In this document: positions 47,977-53,789 of the stretch, one piece after another
Layout of the letters: the number at the start of each line of letters is the position of its first letter
Position numbering within the stretch: the stretch's first letter is position 1
From: Rhodococcus sp. CH91
GTDB lineage: Bacteria; Actinomycetota; Actinomycetes; Mycobacteriales; Mycobacteriaceae
NCBI RefSeq assembly: GCF_022554085.1
Contig: NZ_JAKFYR010000011.1
Coordinates: forward strand, 36,462 to 100,461
Length of the DNA: 64,000 bases
Direction of reading: 5' to 3'
Notes under the pieces: generated by a model
Databases searched by the model: none
What the model saw: the letters and a program-made list of their open reading frames with translations, nothing else
What the model was told of the DNA's origin: nothing
Made by a program: the position numbers and the translations under genes

Positions 47977-48025
47977 CGACATTTCCCGGGATTCGGGTGG
48001 AAATGTCGGTCACAATTCGGAATTG
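47977..48025. promoter_or_regulatory. two inverted repeats upstream of the sir leader ORF
   Basis: CGACATTTCC (47977-47986) and GGAAATGTCG (47999-48008) form a perfect 10-bp repeat with a 12-nt centre. CAATTC-G-GAATTG (48013-48025) is a second perfect repeat 4 nt further on. Both are AT-richer than the surroundings and end 28 nt before the leader ATG, as expected for operators of a sulfur regulator. Confidence 0.55.
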
Positions 48026-48052
48026 CCCCGGTGACGTGGCACAATTGGCCCC

Positions 48053-48157
48053 ATGACAGGACAGGGAGTGCGACTGGTGGCACGACGCCACGTCGACTTC
48101 AAGCGTGTCTGCGCGTCCTGTTGTCTGCCTTGCGCCGCTTGTCTCTGCGCCGACTGA
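48053..48157 (+). CDS. cysteine-rich leader peptide upstream of sir
   Basis: A 34-codon ORF with six cysteines at positions 20, 23, 24, 27, 30 and 32 (CASCCLPCAACLCAD end). It contains VRLVARRHVDFKRV, matching the RLVxRRHVDLxRV pattern of actinobacterial sulfur leader peptides. CACAAT (48040-48045) lies 7 nt before the ATG and no ribosome binding site is present, so the mRNA is probably leaderless. By analogy with polycysteine uORFs of mycobacteria, slow decoding of the Cys codons when cysteine is scarce should open the sir ribosome binding site. It ends 117 nt before sir. Confidence 0.8.
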   Translation: MTGQGVRLVARRHVDFKRVCASCCLPCAACLCAD

Positions 48158-48228
48158 TCCTGGTCGGCACTCCCCGGCACATCCCAGATCCCGCCGGGTC
48201 GAAGCATGCGTGCACGAGGCCCAGCCCC

Positions 48229-48267
48229 CTCCTGCGCTCGTCGATCCGGTCCCCCGAACATCAGGAG
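48229..48267 (+). promoter_or_regulatory. possible SD-sequestering pair for sir
   Basis: CTCCTG (48229-48234) is the exact complement of CAGGAG (48262-48267), the Shine-Dalgarno of sir, with 27 nt between. GGGTC (48196-48200) could pair alternatively with GACCC (48267-48271). These are candidate switching structures for the leader peptide. Confidence 0.45.
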
Positions 48268-48274
48268 ACCCTGC

Positions 48275-49993
48275 ATGTCGTCGACCACCGACGTCACTTC
48301 CGCCGACGAGTCGGCCGCGCCTGCCCGCCGCGCCACCAGGCCCGCGAAGCGACGCGCCGAAGGACAGTGGGCACTCGGCTATCGCGAGCCGCTCAACGCC
48401 AACGAGCAGACGAAGAAGGACGACGATCCGCTCAACGTCCGTCGCCGCATCGAAGACATCTACGCCCACACCGGTTTCGACGGAATCGACAAGGGCGATC
48501 TGCGCGGCCGGTTCCGCTGGTGGGGTCTGTACACCCAGCGCGAGCAGGGTTACGACGGCACCTACACCGGCGACGAGAACATCGACCTGCTCGAGGCGAA
48601 GTACTTCATGATGCGGGTCCGTTGCGACGCCGGCGCCCTGGATCTGGCCCAGCTGCGCACGATCGCCGGTATCTCCACCGAGTTCGCCCGCGACACCGCC
48701 GACCTGTCCGACCGCGAGAACGTCCAGTACCACTGGATCGAGGTCGAGAACGTGCCGGAGATCTGGCGGCGTCTCGAATCGGTGGGACTGAAGACCACCG
48801 AGGCCTGCGGCGACTGCCCCCGCGTCGTGCTCGGTTCGCCGCTCGCCGGTGAGTCCCTCGACGAGATCATCGACGGCACACCGGCGATCGACGAGATCGT
48901 CCGCCGCTACATCGGCGATCCGCAGTACTCGAACCTGCCGCGCAAGTTCAAGACCGCGATCTCCGGCCAGCAGGACGTCGTGCACGAGATCAACGACGTC
49001 GCCTTCGTCGGCGTCGAGCACCCCGAGCACGGCCCCGGCTTCGACCTGTGGGTCGGTGGCGGCCTGTCCACCAACCCGATGCTCGCGCAGCGGGTCGGCG
49101 CGTGGGTGCCGCTGAAGGAGGTCGCCGATGTGTGGGAGGGCGTCGTCGCGATCTTCCGCGACTACGGCTACCGCCGGCTGCGGTCCAAGGCACGTCTGAA
49201 GTTCCTCGTCAAGGACTGGGGGATCGAGAAGTTCCGCGAGGTGCTCGAGACCGAGTACCTGAAGCGTCCGCTGATCGACGGCCCGGCTCCGGCCGCCCCG
49301 GAGCGTCCGATCGATCACGTCGGTGTCCAGAAGCTGCGCAACGGCCTCAACGCCGTGGGTGTCGCGCCGATCGCCGGTCGTGTCTCGGGCACGATCCTGT
49401 CGAAGGTCGCCGACGCCGCCGAGCGGGCGGGGTCCGACCGGATCCGGTTCACCCCGTACCAGAAGCTGATCGTGCTCGACGTGGCCGACGACAAGGTCGA
49501 ACAGCTCGTCACCGAACTCGAGGCGCTGGGTCTGCCCGCCTCGCCGTCGCCGTGGCGCAAGAACCTCATGGCGTGCACGGGAATCGAGTTCTGCAAGCTG
49601 TCCTTCGTCGAGACGCGCAAGCGTTCGCAGGCCCTCGTGCCCGAACTCGAGGAGCGGCTCGCCGACATCAACGCGCAGCTCGACGTCCCGGTGACGATCA
49701 ATATCAACGGCTGCCCCAACTCGTGCGCGCGCTCCCAGATCGCCGACATCGGCTTCAAGGGCCAGCTCGTCGACGACGGTGACGGCAACCAGGTCGAGGG
49801 ATTCCAGGTACATCTGGGTGGAGCGCTGGGCTTCGACGCGCGATTCGGACGCAAGCTCCGCCAGCACAAGGTCACCAGCGCCGAGCTCGGCGACTACATC
49901 GAGCGGGTCGTGCGCACTTTCCTCGAGGAACGCAAGGAGGGCGAGCGCTTCGGCGAATGGGTCCTGCGGGCCGAGGAGGCCGAACTGCGATGA
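48275..49993 (+). CDS. sir: ferredoxin-dependent sulfite reductase
   Basis: 572-residue sirohaem/[4Fe-4S] enzyme reducing sulfite to sulfide with six electrons from ferredoxin. It has two ferrite-like repeats; the cluster and sirohaem cysteines are in CTGIEFC and in NGCPNSCARSQ near the C-terminus. It is homologous to M. tuberculosis SirA (Rv2391). The ATG at 48275 follows CAGGAGACCCTGC. It is the first enzyme gene of sir-cysH-cysD-cysN-chelatase, preceded by the cysteine leader. Confidence 0.95.
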   Translation: MSSTTDVTSADESAAPARRATRPAKRRAEGQWALGYREPLNANEQTKKDDDPLNVRRRIEDIYAHTGFDGIDKGDLRGRFRWWGLYTQREQGYDGTYTGDENIDLLEAKYFMMRVRCDAGALDLAQLRTIAGISTEFARDTADLSDRENVQYHWIEVENVPEIWRRLESVGLKTTEACGDCPRVVLGSPLAGESLDEIIDGTPAIDEIVRRYIGDPQYSNLPRKFKTAISGQQDVVHEINDVAFVGVEHPEHGPGFDLWVGGGLSTNPMLAQRVGAWVPLKEVADVWEGVVAIFRDYGYRRLRSKARLKFLVKDWGIEKFREVLETEYLKRPLIDGPAPAAPERPIDHVGVQKLRNGLNAVGVAPIAGRVSGTILSKVADAAERAGSDRIRFTPYQKLIVLDVADDKVEQLVTELEALGLPASPSPWRKNLMACTGIEFCKLSFVETRKRSQALVPELEERLADINAQLDVPVTININGCPNSCARSQIADIGFKGQLVDDGDGNQVEGFQVHLGGALGFDARFGRKLRQHKVTSAELGDYIERVVRTFLEERKEGERFGEWVLRAEEAELR

Positions 49994-50046
49994 CGGGCAC
50001 TGCAGCAATGGTGGACACGACGAACGAGCGGGGACGGAAACGATGA
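49990..50046 (+). CDS. possible 18-residue coupling ORF between sir and cysH
   Basis: ATG 49990 overlaps the sir stop as ATGA and the stop TGA (50044-50046) overlaps the cysH ATG as ATGA, so the 50-nt gap is bridged by one open frame. The peptide has no cysteine and no family match. It may only carry ribosomes from sir to cysH; it could also be chance. Confidence 0.3.
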   Translation: MTGTAAMVDTTNERGRKR

Positions 50047-50768
50047 GCATCGACCCGAACATCGACGAACTCCGGAGTATTGCCGCGCAGGGGGCGGCAG
50101 ACCTCGAGGGGGCGTCGGCGCAGGAACTCCTGCGGTGGACGGACGAGACGTTCGGTGCGCCCACCGAACACGGACGCAGCGGCTACATCGTCGCGTCGAA
50201 CATGCAGGACGGGGTCCTGGTGCACCTCGCCGCGCAGCAGCGTCCCGGCGTGGACGTGCTGTTCCTCGACACCGGTTACCACTTCGCCGAGACTCTCGGC
50301 ACGCGCGACGCGGTGGCGCAGGTCTACGGCGTGAACATCGTCACCGCGCAGGCCCGGCACTCCGTCGCCGAGCAGGACGACCTGCTCGGCAAGGATCTGT
50401 TCGCCCGTGATCCGAACGAATGCTGCCGCTTGCGCAAGGTGGTGCCACTGAAGGAGAGCCTGCAGGGTTACCGGGCCTGGGTGACGGGAATCCGGCGGGT
50501 CGAGGCACCCACACGTGCGAACGCTCCGCTCGTCTCCTTCGACGAGGCGTTCGGACTGGTGAAGATCAATCCGATCGCGGCATGGTCCGACGAGGACATG
50601 CAGAACTACATCGACGAGCACGGGATCCTCGTCAATCCCCTCGTCGACGAGGGCTACCCGTCGATCGGGTGCGCCCCGTGCACCATCAAACCACTTCCCG
50701 GGTCCGATCCGCGTAGCGGACGCTGGGCCGGCCGAGCCAAGACCGAATGCGGGTTGCACGCCTCATGA
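50043..50768 (+). CDS. cysH: adenylylsulfate (APS) reductase
   Basis: 241 residues. The PP-loop-like fold carries four cluster cysteines: C127-C128 and C210-x2-C213, diagnostic for [4Fe-4S] APS reductases rather than PAPS reductases. The catalytic cysteine is C236 in the C-terminal ECGLH tail. It reduces APS to sulfite with thioredoxin. The cysD ATG overlaps its stop by 4 nt. Confidence 0.95.
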   Translation: MSIDPNIDELRSIAAQGAADLEGASAQELLRWTDETFGAPTEHGRSGYIVASNMQDGVLVHLAAQQRPGVDVLFLDTGYHFAETLGTRDAVAQVYGVNIVTAQARHSVAEQDDLLGKDLFARDPNECCRLRKVVPLKESLQGYRAWVTGIRRVEAPTRANAPLVSFDEAFGLVKINPIAAWSDEDMQNYIDEHGILVNPLVDEGYPSIGCAPCTIKPLPGSDPRSGRWAGRAKTECGLHAS

Positions 50769-51709
50769 CACTCACCGACACGAATCCCACCGGATCCCGG
50801 AAGATCCTGGACGGCAACAGGTTCGACACACTGGACGCGCTCGAGTCCGAGGCGATCCACGTCTTCCGCGAGGTCGCGGGCGAGTTCGAACGACCCGTGA
50901 TCCTGTTCTCCGGAGGCAAGGACTCCACCGTCCTGCTGCACCTGGCGATCAAGGCCTTCTGGCCGGCACCGTTGCCCTTCGCGTTGCTGCACGTCGACAC
51001 CGGCCACAACCTCCCCGAGGTTCTCGAGTTCCGCGACCTCGTGGTCTCGAAGTACAACCTGCGCCTGCACGTCGCGAGCGTCGAGGACTATCTCGCCGAC
51101 GGACGGCTCACCGAGCGTCCCGACGGCATCCGCAATCCGCTGCAGACGGTTCCCCTGCTCGACGCGATCTCGGAGAACCGGTTCGACGCCGTCTTCGGTG
51201 GCGGGCGCCGCGACGAGGAGCGCTCCCGCGCCAAGGAGCGGATCTTCTCCCTGCGCAACGCCTTCGGCCAGTGGGATCCCAAGCGCCAGCGCCCCGAGCT
51301 GTGGAATCTGTACAACGGGCGGCACGCACCCGGTGAGCACGTGCGCGTCTTCCCGCTCAGCAACTTCACCGAACTCGACATCTGGCGGTACATCGCACGC
51401 GAGGACGTGGAGCTGGCGAGCATCTACTACACGCACGAGCGTCCCGTCTACCGCCGTGACGGCATGTGGATGACGTCGGGCGTGTGGGGCGGACCGGCCG
51501 AAGGCGAAGAACTCGAGGTCCGTCCGGTGCGGTACCGCACCGTCGGCGACGGTTCGACCACCGGCGCGATCCTGTCCACGGCCGCCACGAACGAGGAGAT
51601 CCTCGCCGAGGTCGCGGCCTCACGACTGACCGAGCGCGGCGCGACCCGCGGTGACGACCGAGTGTCCGAAGCGGCCATGGAAGACCGCAAACGAGAGGGC
51701 TACTTCTGA
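50765..51709 (+). CDS. cysD: sulfate adenylyltransferase subunit 2
   Basis: 314-residue ATP-sulfurylase small subunit. The PP-loop SGGKDST is at residues 49-55, and GGGRRDEERSRAKERIFSLR binds ATP/APS. With CysN it activates sulfate to APS, using GTP hydrolysis by CysN. Its ATG overlaps the cysH stop and cysN starts 2 bp after its own stop. Confidence 0.97.
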   Translation: MTLTDTNPTGSRKILDGNRFDTLDALESEAIHVFREVAGEFERPVILFSGGKDSTVLLHLAIKAFWPAPLPFALLHVDTGHNLPEVLEFRDLVVSKYNLRLHVASVEDYLADGRLTERPDGIRNPLQTVPLLDAISENRFDAVFGGGRRDEERSRAKERIFSLRNAFGQWDPKRQRPELWNLYNGRHAPGEHVRVFPLSNFTELDIWRYIAREDVELASIYYTHERPVYRRDGMWMTSGVWGGPAEGEELEVRPVRYRTVGDGSTTGAILSTAATNEEILAEVAASRLTERGATRGDDRVSEAAMEDRKREGYF

Positions 51710-51711
51710 TC

Positions 51712-53046
51712 ATGAGCGACGTTCACGAGCGGAGCGTGCAGAGCGACACGCAGCTTCTGCGCCTGGCCACCGCCGGTTCGGTCGACGACGGCAAGTCCAC
51801 CCTGGTGGGACGACTGCTGTACGACACCAAGTCCGTGCTCGCCGACCAGATCGACGCCGTCACCCGGGCATCGGTCGATCGTGGCCTCGATACCCCCGAC
51901 CTGTCCCTGCTCGTCGACGGCCTGCGCGCCGAGCGGGAGCAGGGCATCACCATCGACGTGGCCTACCGCTACTTCGCGACGCCGAAGCGGAGCTTCGTCC
52001 TGGCGGACACCCCGGGACACGTGCAGTACACCCGCAACACCGTCTCGGGCGCGTCCACCGCCCAGCTCGTCGTCCTGCTGGTCGACGCCCGCAAGGGCGT
52101 GGTCTCCCAGACCCGCAAGCACGCCGCGGTGCTGGCCCTGCTCGGTGTGCCGAAGCTGGTCCTCGCCGTCAACAAGATCGATCTCGTCGAGGATCCGGCG
52201 GCGGTGTTCGCACGGATCTCGGCAGAATTCGGTGAGCTCACCGGTTCGCTCGGCTGGGCACCCGAGGACGTGCAGGAGATTCCGGTCTCCGCCCTGCACG
52301 GCGACAACGTGGCCGTGCGCAGCGAGAACACTCCCTATTACGACGGTCCCACTCTCATCGAGTATCTCGAGTCCGTGCCCGTCGACGCGGATGTGCACGG
52401 TCGGCACGAGACGGGACTGCGCTTCCCGGTGCAGTACGTCATCCGTCCCCGCACGGCAGAGTTTCCCGACTACCGCGGCTATGCGGGCCAGATCGCGGCG
52501 GGCTCCGTGCGCCCCGGCGACGAGGTCGTCGTGCTGCCGTCCGGTGTCCGCACGACCGTCGAGCGCATCGACAGTGCCGACGGCTCGTTCGACGTCGCGC
52601 ATGCCGGCCGGTCGGTGACCCTCGTACTCGCCGACGACGTCGACGTCTCCCGCGGCGACGTCATCGCAGCCCCTCAGGAGGCTCCGGAACCGCTGTCCGA
52701 ATTCGAGGCCACCGTGTGCTGGCTGGCCGAGAAGCCGCTGCGTCCCGGCGCCCGGCTTCTGCTCAAGCACGGCACCCGGACCACCCAGGCCATCGTCGGG
52801 ACGATCGTGGAGCGGTTCGACGAACAGAACCTCTCGTCCGTCCCCGACCCGGCGAGCATCGAACTCAACGAGATCGCGCGCATCACGGTGCGGGTGGCCG
52901 AGCCGATCGCCGCGGACGACTATCGGGTCAACCGTCGCAGCGGCAGCTTCCTGCTGATCGATCCGGCGGGTGGCAACACGCTCGCCGCCGGCCTGGTGGG
53001 CGACGGACTCGCCGAGATCGAACTCGGGAACCGCGTCCCGGCATGA
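51712..53046 (+). CDS. cysN: sulfate adenylyltransferase subunit 1 (GTPase), no CysC domain
   Basis: 444 residues, an EF-Tu-like GTPase: G1 GSVDDGKS (22-29), DTPGH, NKID, followed by two beta-barrel domains. It ends after the barrels; the APS kinase (CysC) domain found fused in mycobacterial CysNC is absent. This fits direct reduction of APS by the adjacent CysH. The chelatase gene overlaps its stop by 4 nt. Confidence 0.96.
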   Translation: MSDVHERSVQSDTQLLRLATAGSVDDGKSTLVGRLLYDTKSVLADQIDAVTRASVDRGLDTPDLSLLVDGLRAEREQGITIDVAYRYFATPKRSFVLADTPGHVQYTRNTVSGASTAQLVVLLVDARKGVVSQTRKHAAVLALLGVPKLVLAVNKIDLVEDPAAVFARISAEFGELTGSLGWAPEDVQEIPVSALHGDNVAVRSENTPYYDGPTLIEYLESVPVDADVHGRHETGLRFPVQYVIRPRTAEFPDYRGYAGQIAAGSVRPGDEVVVLPSGVRTTVERIDSADGSFDVAHAGRSVTLVLADDVDVSRGDVIAAPQEAPEPLSEFEATVCWLAEKPLRPGARLLLKHGTRTTQAIVGTIVERFDEQNLSSVPDPASIELNEIARITVRVAEPIAADDYRVNRRSGSFLLIDPAGGNTLAAGLVGDGLAEIELGNRVPA

Positions 53047-53789
53047 CGCCCCTCGTCGCCGTCGCGCACGGCAGTCGCGACCCGCGGTCCGCGCGGGCCG
53101 TGGCTGCCGTACTCGACACCCTGCGCGCCGAGCATCCGGGGCTCGACATCCGGCTGGCCTTCCTGGATCTGAACACCCCTTCGGTCGGCCAGGTGCTCGA
53201 TGCGATTGCGGCGGACGGACATCGGCAGGTCGCGGTGATCCCCCTGCTCCTCGGGAGCGCTTTCCATGCGCGCGTCGACCTCCCCGCCCTGCTGCGCGAG
53301 GCACGTTTCCGCCATCCGTCTCTCGAGGTGCTGTGCTCGCGCATCCTGGGCGACGACGACCTGCTGGTCGACGCGGCGCGCGAACTGATCACGGATACCG
53401 GTGTGTCGGTGGATGATCCGTCCGTGGGGATCGCGGTGTGCGCGGTGGGGTCGCGGCGCCCGGAGGCGAACAGGACCACCGGTCTCCTCGTCCCCCGCAT
53501 CGTCGCCGGCACGGCCTGGACGAAAACCTCGGCGTGCTTCGCCACCTCCGCGGATCCGTCGGTGACCTCGGCACTCGGGTCACTGTCACACAGCGGTGCG
53601 CGCACCCTGGTCCTTGCCCCGTGGATTCTCGCGCCGGGGTTGCTGTGGGATCGTGCGTGCGCGATTGCCGAATCCGCGCCGCACGTACGGATCGCAGCGA
53701 CTCTCACGTCCCACCGCGCCGTCGCCCGGGTGATCGCCGAGCGTTACACCGATGCCGTGCACCGGGTACATGTACTGCGTGTGGCCTGA
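53043..53789 (+). CDS. sirohydrochlorin chelatase (CbiX/Che1-like)
   Basis: 248 residues in two related halves. The N-terminal VAHGSRDP supplies the metal-chelating histidine and LGSAFHARVDLP a second one. Family members insert Fe2+ or Co2+ into sirohydrochlorin; in this operon the role is most likely sirohaem for Sir. Its ATG overlaps the cysN stop. It corresponds to Rv2393 (che1) by position. Confidence 0.85.
   Translation: MTPLVAVAHGSRDPRSARAVAAVLDTLRAEHPGLDIRLAFLDLNTPSVGQVLDAIAADGHRQVAVIPLLLGSAFHARVDLPALLREARFRHPSLEVLCSRILGDDDLLVDAARELITDTGVSVDDPSVGIAVCAVGSRRPEANRTTGLLVPRIVAGTAWTKTSACFATSADPSVTSALGSLSHSGARTLVLAPWILAPGLLWDRACAIAESAPHVRIAATLTSHRAVARVIAERYTDAVHRVHVLRVA

Follow-up and report, generated by a model that had tools for sequence, protein, structure and literature searches.

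A conserved polycysteine leader ORF and its predicted role in cysteine-responsive control of the sulfite reduction operon in Rhodococcus

Expression of the sir-cysH-cysD-cysN-chelatase operon in Rhodococcus sp. CH91 is most likely set by a cysteine-sensing leaderless short ORF that lies upstream of sir and would act as a translation attenuator. The leader was analysed within a stretch of 64,000 nt (hereafter, the window), its product is MTGQGVRLVARRHVDFKRVCASCCLPCAACLCAD, and the features discussed below are listed in Table 1. By its sequence, the leader corresponds in Rhodococcus to the M. smegmatis polycysteine leader Ms4527A, a kind of leader already known from mycobacteria.

Table 1. Features of the leader locus (window coordinates) and related leaders elsewhere in the genome.
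Feature	Position	Strand	Basis or context
Inverted repeat CGACATTTCC-N12-GGAAATGTCG, candidate operator	47977..48008	.	Perfect 10-base arms
-10-like element CACAAT in conserved context TGGCACAAT, 7 nt before ATG	48040..48045	+	CANAAT in 135/138 loci
Predicted leaderless polycysteine leader ORF, 34 codons and stop	48053..48157	+	Translation, family profile, conservation
Putative RNA hairpin formed by the GVRLVARRHVDF codons of the leader ORF; its base falls at nt +15 of the presumed transcript	48067..48098	+	Third-position constraint
Polycysteine tract, Cys codons 20-32 (3 UGU, 3 UGC)	48110..48148	+	Translation; UGU excess in 123 leaders
TGT-CTG hexamer (Cys24-Leu25), conserved at synonymous positions	48122..48127	+	123 loci
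Putative stop-codon hairpin GCCGACTG/TGGTCGGC	48149..48168	+	Inner pairs in 15/18 genus sequences; 3 without the columns
Putative hairpin H3, CCCGGC 48173-48178 with GCCGGG 48193-48198	48173..48198	+	97.2% of cells paired, 18 sequences, one compensatory change
Putative alternative helix P4, CCGGGTCGA 48194-48202 with TCGATCCGG 48241-48249	48194..48249	+	95.7% of cells paired, 18 sequences
Possible anti-SD CTCCTG 48229-48234 and sir SD CAGGAG 48262-48267	48229..48267	+	Genus alignment
sir, sulfite/nitrite reductase family, likely start ATG 48275	48275..49993	+	NIR_SIR domains
ORF holding cysH (phosphoadenylyl/adenylyl-sulfate reductase; true start further in)	49779..50768	+	PAPS_reduct
cysD	50747..51709	+	Profile search
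cysN	51712..53046	+	Profile search
ORF holding CbiX-type chelatase (true start further in)	52716..53789	+	PF01903 CbiX, E 3.4e-34
Related leaders L116 and L119, nearby divergent pair	G000:C39:20222-21734	Opposite strands	Before winged-helix regulator and monooxygenase-like gene
Related leader	C22:422273		Before acyl-CoA-dehydrogenase-like gene
Related leader	G000:C35:165922		Before DUF4395-cysA2
Related leader, below cut-off	C22:27697		Before fprA

The Cys residues of the leader occupy positions 20, 23, 24, 27, 30, and 32, and no purine run resembling a Shine-Dalgarno sequence (SD) is visible by eye 5-12 nt upstream of the ATG. An earlier sequence-only reading had claimed both the six Cys residues within 13 and the lack of a ribosome-binding site, and both claims hold. 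The leader thus has the clustered Cys codons in a short ORF that are typical of Canestrari-type polycysteine leaders; in the 2020 account by Canestrari and co-workers, stalling in the Cys tract is said to expose the ribosome-binding site of the next gene.

The leader stands on the same strand (plus) as, and before the first gene of, a cysteine-biosynthesis operon. The gene order that had been proposed, i.e., sir, cysH, cysD, cysN, and a chelatase, was recovered, with the last gene being of the CbiX type. The genes are tightly packed: the cysH ORF overlaps that of cysD, and 2 nt separate the cysD and cysN ORFs, spacing which suggests that all five genes from sir to CbiX form one transcript. The ATG of sir has an SD 7 nt before it and lies 117 nt beyond the leader stop. 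Upstream of the leader is a divergent gene with radical-SAM and HemN_C domains, which we read as a probable hemW. In one relative (L033; G018, C17, minus strand), what follows the leader is no more than the terminal portion of sir, with cysH- and cysD-like genes behind it; most of sir may have been deleted there and the leader retained, or the assembly may be at fault.

The core of the peptide had been assigned to a pattern of actinobacterial sulfur leaders, and a curated family agrees with this assignment. The NCBIfam profile NF042936 (leader_Ms4527A) aligns over its full length with residues 6-26 of the leader at 44.6 bits (E 7.3e-12; 44 bits in the genome search), which is 0.4 bits short of the curated cut-off of 45 bits, a deficit that we count against the attenuator reading. 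The leader upstream of sir in genome G012 (L017), a clear orthologue, scores 38.9 bits and is also under this cut-off. Since the 45-bit cut-off misses clear orthologues, we call the leader an Ms4527A orthologue and not a formal hit; Ms4527A itself we take to be the sirA-cysH leader of M. smegmatis. At E <= 0.01, mostly irrespective of genomic position, the profile matched 271 of 298 genomes of the order, and it exceeded the cut-off in 35 of the 298; none of the 14 control genomes was matched. With the window peptide as the query, 75 of 101 relatives were matched at E 0.1.

The frequency of the leader was measured at named loci retrieved with the Sir protein (best 80 of 571), which come from Rhodococcus, Rhodococcoides, Nocardia, Prescottella, Aldersonia, Antrihabitans, and two metagenome bins; the nearest Sir among these best 80 of 571, from Rhodococcus gordoniae, is 95% identical. 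The leader is found upstream of sir in 78 of these 80 loci (best 80 of 571), and at the other two (L078, L085) the contigs begin at the sir start and carry no upstream DNA. The full set with a sir start comprises 138 loci, i.e., 78 named ones, the window and its copy L001, and 28 and 30 loci from leader-based searches; the window is thus counted twice, some genomes occur twice, and L033, with only a tail fragment of sir, was dropped. The leader is present at all 138 loci, and because 59 of these were fetched by the leader itself, only the 80 named loci measure its frequency. Removal of identical sequences left 123 leaders, namely that of the window, 78 contributed by the Sir search, and 44 by leader searches. 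They were split into 26 of the mycobacterial type, an inferred label for genus g29 with L148 and L156 included, and 97 others, for which "Nocardia-type" and the remaining group names were taken from peptide patterns common with named loci. The reading frame is conserved across these leaders, with residues fixed while unpaired synonymous bases change.

A -10-like element had been claimed 7 nt upstream of the ORF, and CACAAT is indeed found there, its end 7 nt from the A of the ATG. The element reads CACAAT at 107 of the 138 loci, CAGAAT at 23, CATAAT at 5, CAGACT at 2, and CACACT at 1. It is separated from the start codon by 7 nt at 124 loci and by 6 nt at 14. A start codon had to have NANNNT 6-8 nt upstream, and candidates with a fifth-base A and a spacing of 7 were favored. 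Only A2 and T6 were required in this choice, and the C at the first base and the A at the fourth were unselected. The element and its conservation point to a transcript that starts at or next to the leader ATG.

The attenuator would work as follows. The transcript from the TGGCACAAT promoter would begin on or directly beside the ATG, with a 70S ribosome initiating at its 5' end. When Cys-tRNA is short, the ribosome would pause in the UGU/UGC run, and the pause would alter the RNA structures forming between the leader and the sir start, so that sir expression goes up; when cysteine is plentiful, the ribosome would clear the ORF and sir would stay low. Control by Cys-tRNA supply, as proposed by the sequence-only reading, is supported by homology, locus, promoter spacing, position, and conservation, and for this organism it is predicted on these grounds. 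The mycobacterial precedent that had been invoked is in line with three sources: in M. smegmatis, leaderless ORFs containing Cys-codon runs control the genes that follow via cysteine-dependent ribosome speed (PMC9031893), and translation attenuation governs the cysteine genes (PMC13236596); the same regulation is predicted for six conserved M. tuberculosis ORFs (PMC9094748). Translation attenuation was chosen here because PMC13236596 reports it for the M. smegmatis cysteine genes.

While the sensor is well supported, the route from stalling to sir is one that we infer, and 117 nt is a long distance for coupling. Within these 117 nt, the strand GCCGGGTCGA can pair either with the preceding CCCGGC (H3) or with the following TCGATCCGG (P4, whose end is 12 nt short of the sir SD), the two pairings being mutually exclusive, and both helices are kept in the genus. 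Covariation in P4 is not beyond that of shuffles (139/500 at least as high), and for H3 taken with the leader and stop hairpins it is weak (33/500 shuffles for the four helices together). A switch between H3 and P4 is therefore offered as a lead only. A simple lock of CTCCTG on the CAGGAG of sir was rejected: its six pairs hold in 18, 13, 17, 15, 9, and 12 of the 18 genus sequences, and we do not regard it as a conserved lock because the weakest pair is kept in 9/18; occlusion folding, moreover, gave no opening of the SD. Also rejected was a pairing of the 5'-end GGGAGTGC with the post-stop GCACTCCC, in which, of eight pairs, two hold in 8/18 sequences and one in 1/18.

In the occlusion folding, the ribosome was placed at each codon and all RNA upstream of its front edge was removed. 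The sir SD of the window is approximately 0.40 unpaired at every ribosome position, which counts against the attenuator reading. Over the 123 loci, it is unpaired at 0.289 with the ribosome at the first Cys codon vs. 0.323 at the stop, a difference slightly opposite to expectation. Pairing of the sir SD with the Cys tract varies among groups: it is lowest in the mycobacterial type (0.005), followed by this genus (0.11), the Nocardia type (0.21), and the fascians/kyotonense type (0.29). The whole leader folds no better than shuffled sequences (z -1.04; -1.77 for the post-stop part), which we likewise count against the attenuator reading. No intrinsic terminator was found between 48157 and 48275, and one weak site lies inside the ORF, where 0.4 are expected by chance; the G+C-rich hairpin and U tract of trp/ilv-type attenuators are thus lacking. 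At the gathering threshold, Rfam yielded no family for the leader and only two tRNAs in the window.

The main rival keeps the same sensor and changes its output. Leader translation would shield the transcript; when cysteine is ample, Rho would end transcription in the untranslated stretch past the leader stop, a stalled ribosome would prevent this, and control would be exerted on transcription of the whole operon. The lack of an intrinsic terminator and of SD opening upon stalling in the folding leaves room for such an output. In its favor, the leader stop and the sir start are separated by 106-136 nt in the 18 genus-group sequences, and mycobacteria control ilvB1 through transcription attenuation at a leader ORF, there with an intrinsic terminator, according to PMC13236596. 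On the other hand, the post-stop gap is 47 nt in one relative (L064), and that source describes the cysteine genes of M. smegmatis as translation-attenuated. We consider a Rho-type output possible but unlikely, and retain the effect on sir translation as the probable one.

The leader codons themselves also carry a putative RNA hairpin. Its 11 pairs are intact in 18/18 genus sequences, with the paired bases invariant in all 18, and its base is at nt 15 in 93 of 97 leaders; the lowest-energy fold of the window leader retains the outer part and displaces the inner helix by one base. Third codon positions were compared on a sir-based tree for the 97 leaders outside the mycobacterial type, with conserved sir columns as the control, and four of the six paired third positions proved nearly frozen. 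Arg-4 underwent 3 third-base changes vs. a mean of 17.9 for Arg in sir (1/29 columns as low), Val-2 underwent 1 vs. 16.8 (0/22), Arg+1 underwent 4 (2/29), and Val+3 underwent 3 (0/22). The other two, His+2 (4 changes, sir mean 5.8) and Asp+4 (9, mean 7.8), are no more conserved than the sir controls; at both third positions, either pyrimidine (C or U) is able to pair. Unpaired third bases inside or just after the hairpin changed often: 21 times at Leu-3 (sir mean 10.2), 25 at Ala-1 (18.0), 24 at Arg0 (17.9), and 21 at Arg+7 (17.9). The Arg-4 codon, whose terminal A pairs with the U of a Val codon, is CGA in 81/84 leaders, while CGA makes up 4.7% of Arg codons in sir.

The pairs -11:11 and -3:5 are present in 85 and 95 of the 97 leaders, respectively, vs. 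1 and 2 of the 26 mycobacterial-type ones, and since they are broken in the latter, the hairpin belongs to the Rhodococcus-Nocardia side. Covariation was rejected as its proof. Fisher tests, which ignore kinship, gave p of 1e-10 and 5e-6; on the tree, same-branch changes numbered 3 vs. 0.85 expected and 1 vs. 1.08, and some control pairs matched this excess (e.g., 2 vs. 0.32 and 4 vs. 1.57). Because control pairs show such excesses, the hairpin rests on codon choice and not on covariation. Neither is it the sole constraint, since four slow positions lie outside it (Lys6, Val8, Cys13, and Leu14, the sir control for Cys being three columns only).

The peptide core LVARRHVDxKRVC is strongly conserved. 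L, R, R, H, D, and R are identical in 123/123 leaders, and V is kept in 121, A in 116, K in 115, and the first Cys in 121. The mycobacterial-type leaders retain the core despite pairs -11:11 and -3:5 being broken in 25 and 24 of 26; since its residues are kept on both sides of the hairpin split, the peptide is constrained apart from the hairpin. One explanation is that the nascent peptide is part of the sensor, with LVARRHVDxKRV in the exit tunnel strengthening or tuning the stall when the ribosome is at the Cys codons. The invariant residues and their retention where the hairpin is broken speak for it, as do the 21-24 changes at the unpaired third bases of Leu-3, Arg0, and Arg+7, above the sir mean for the same residue, and the presence of related cores before other genes with other codons. 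However, the search pattern itself demanded R0 and D, with four residues allowed at each place between, even though no locus with upstream DNA failed it, and conserved residues could also reflect the speed of leader translation or RNA constraints on codon positions 1 and 2. A sensing role of the peptide is accordingly proposed tentatively, as something we would not expect but take seriously.

Cysteine codons in the leaders are biased towards UGU. They are 63% UGU (TGT 315, TGC 184; 315/499 in the 123 leaders), vs. 1.2% in the sir stretches of the same loci (TGT 9, TGC 744; 9/753), and the TGT share is higher in the leader than in its own sir at 123/123 loci and in each of seven groups, these counts coming from related species and not from independent events. 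The first Cys codon is mixed (TGC 62, TGT 33; 14 changes on the tree) and not fixed as UGU. The Cys that ends the first cluster (Cys24) is TGT in 116/116 of those leaders among the 123 that have Cys there, with 0 third-base changes in 90 leaders on the tree, and the Leu codon after it changed twice in 71 leaders vs. a sir mean of 10.2. This frozen UGUCUG hints at a role in the RNA; no pairing partner for it emerged from base-pair probabilities. The single tRNA-Cys of bacteria reads UGU by wobble, and such reading could slow decoding.

The number of Cys residues per leader (n = 123) is 1 in 1 leader, 2 in 7, 3 in 46, 4 in 28, 5 in 23, 6 in 7, and 7 in 11. The leaders with just two Cys (7/123) or one (1/123) are counted against the attenuator reading. 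Past the first Cys cluster, the leaders differ between loci in both length and sequence. In two relatives (L029, L030), the Cys run is followed by a Met-rich tail (...CMPCGMCRMHMPSMH), which looks as though Cys and Met were both sensed.

The stretch that separates the leader promoter from the divergent hemW-like gene contains a perfect inverted repeat. Repeats with ATTT in the arm, at most 120 nt from the leader start, were found at 86/123 loci, vs. 0-1 of 123 in mononucleotide-shuffled upstream regions. All are outside the mycobacterial type (86/97 vs. 0/26), including 16/18 in this Rhodococcus group, 30/33 among Nocardia-type loci, 9/9 in the fascians/kyotonense type, where symmetry is kept and the arms are altered, and 1/5 in the kroppenstedtii type. 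The exact palindrome form occurs once in the genome, at the leader locus. The repeat is a candidate operator for a transcription factor, possibly a second layer of control apart from the attenuator, and may serve sir, hemW, or both. We treat the hairpin, the UGU bias, and this repeat as additions to a known kind of leader. No paper on the leader hairpin or the UGU bias stood among the titles from literature searches worded in part for the codons; all three additions may already be in print.

These constraints could reflect overlapping codes in Rhodococcus, Nocardia, and their kin. LVARRHVDxKRV would have been selected as a nascent peptide that aids the stall at the Cys codons. The hairpin base at nt +15, approximately at the end of an initiating 70S ribosome on a leaderless message, could gate loading. 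Most Cys codons would be held to wobble-read UGU for a more sensitive stall, and the upstream operator would be added to these. If this were so, the cysteine gauge would rest jointly on peptide, RNA shape, and codon choice, with the operator as a further layer; we regard the full combination as speculative and rather improbable. The leaders do raise a question beyond their Cys codons, namely, why the preceding residues are invariant and why the hairpin is found in one branch only and not in the mycobacterial type.

A functional Cys-rich small protein, e.g., a metal or redox binder, would account for the strong conservation of residues up to the first Cys and for the four to seven Cys in 69/123 leaders. 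Unlike a metal site, however, the leader has a Cys number ranging from 1 to 7 and a variable tail after the first Cys cluster; it stands before sir in all 78 named loci able to show it (best 80 of 571), and the promoter and its spacing fit a cis element. Such a product is very improbable. That the ORF arose by chance in GC-rich DNA, as its shortness and the overlapping open frames might suggest, is already refuted by its conservation (78/80 named sir loci; best 80 of 571) and has practically no chance of being true. Translated in six frames, the window gave 671 ORFs of >= 20 aa, among which the leader alone has 6 Cys in 13 residues, and there was none in 80 resampled windows (40 order-1 and 40 order-2 Markov).

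The attenuator at sir has probable relatives in the same genome, where five further leaders with related cores were found. The profile NF042934 (cis_reg_atten) has four matches above its cut-off elsewhere in the genome; 10/14 control genomes also matched at E up to 10, none of them over the cut-off. L116 and L119 are possibly a sulfur-linked pair. The names of the genes downstream of the five leaders, including cysA2 and fprA, are readings of translations and not profile matches. By eye, four of the five have TANNNT 6-7 nt before an ATG or GTG, and their Cys codons are TGT in 9 cases and TGC in 7. These leaders fit a regulon of leaders, and a regulon of this kind has been reported for mycobacteria.

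Comparison with known systems places the sir leader among several related ones. With the putative leader peptides of NF042934 it has a related RRxxVDLxR-type core in common, whereas its score against that profile is 16 bits vs. a cut-off of 27. The small Cys-rich ORF of mycobacterial cysA2 (Shell et al., 2015, PMC4633059) resembles it in having Cys codons clustered near the end and a sulfur gene downstream, but precedes another operon and has only part of the core; the leader at G000:C35:165922 is its likely counterpart. The ilvB1 leader of M. tuberculosis is also a leader ORF with codons for the end product and, according to PMC13236596, has a Rho-independent terminator, whereas none was seen between the present leader and sir. 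The closest relative is the Ms4527A-type M. smegmatis leader (NF042936), with the same LVARRH[VI]D[FL]KRVC core and Cys run. Loci of the mycobacterial type likewise have the leader before sir and its start 6-7 nt after CANAAT. In this genus, however, the leader has an ATG start, 4-7 Cys spread with Ala, Pro, and Leu, and the hairpin, whereas mycobacterial-type leaders mostly have GTG, a short CxCxCLP end, and a broken hairpin. With an invariant core, CANAAT at a fixed spacing, and UGU-rich Cys codons as a common signature, cysteine-responsive leader control of sulfite reduction would thus extend from mycobacteria to Rhodococcus, Nocardia, and their kin.
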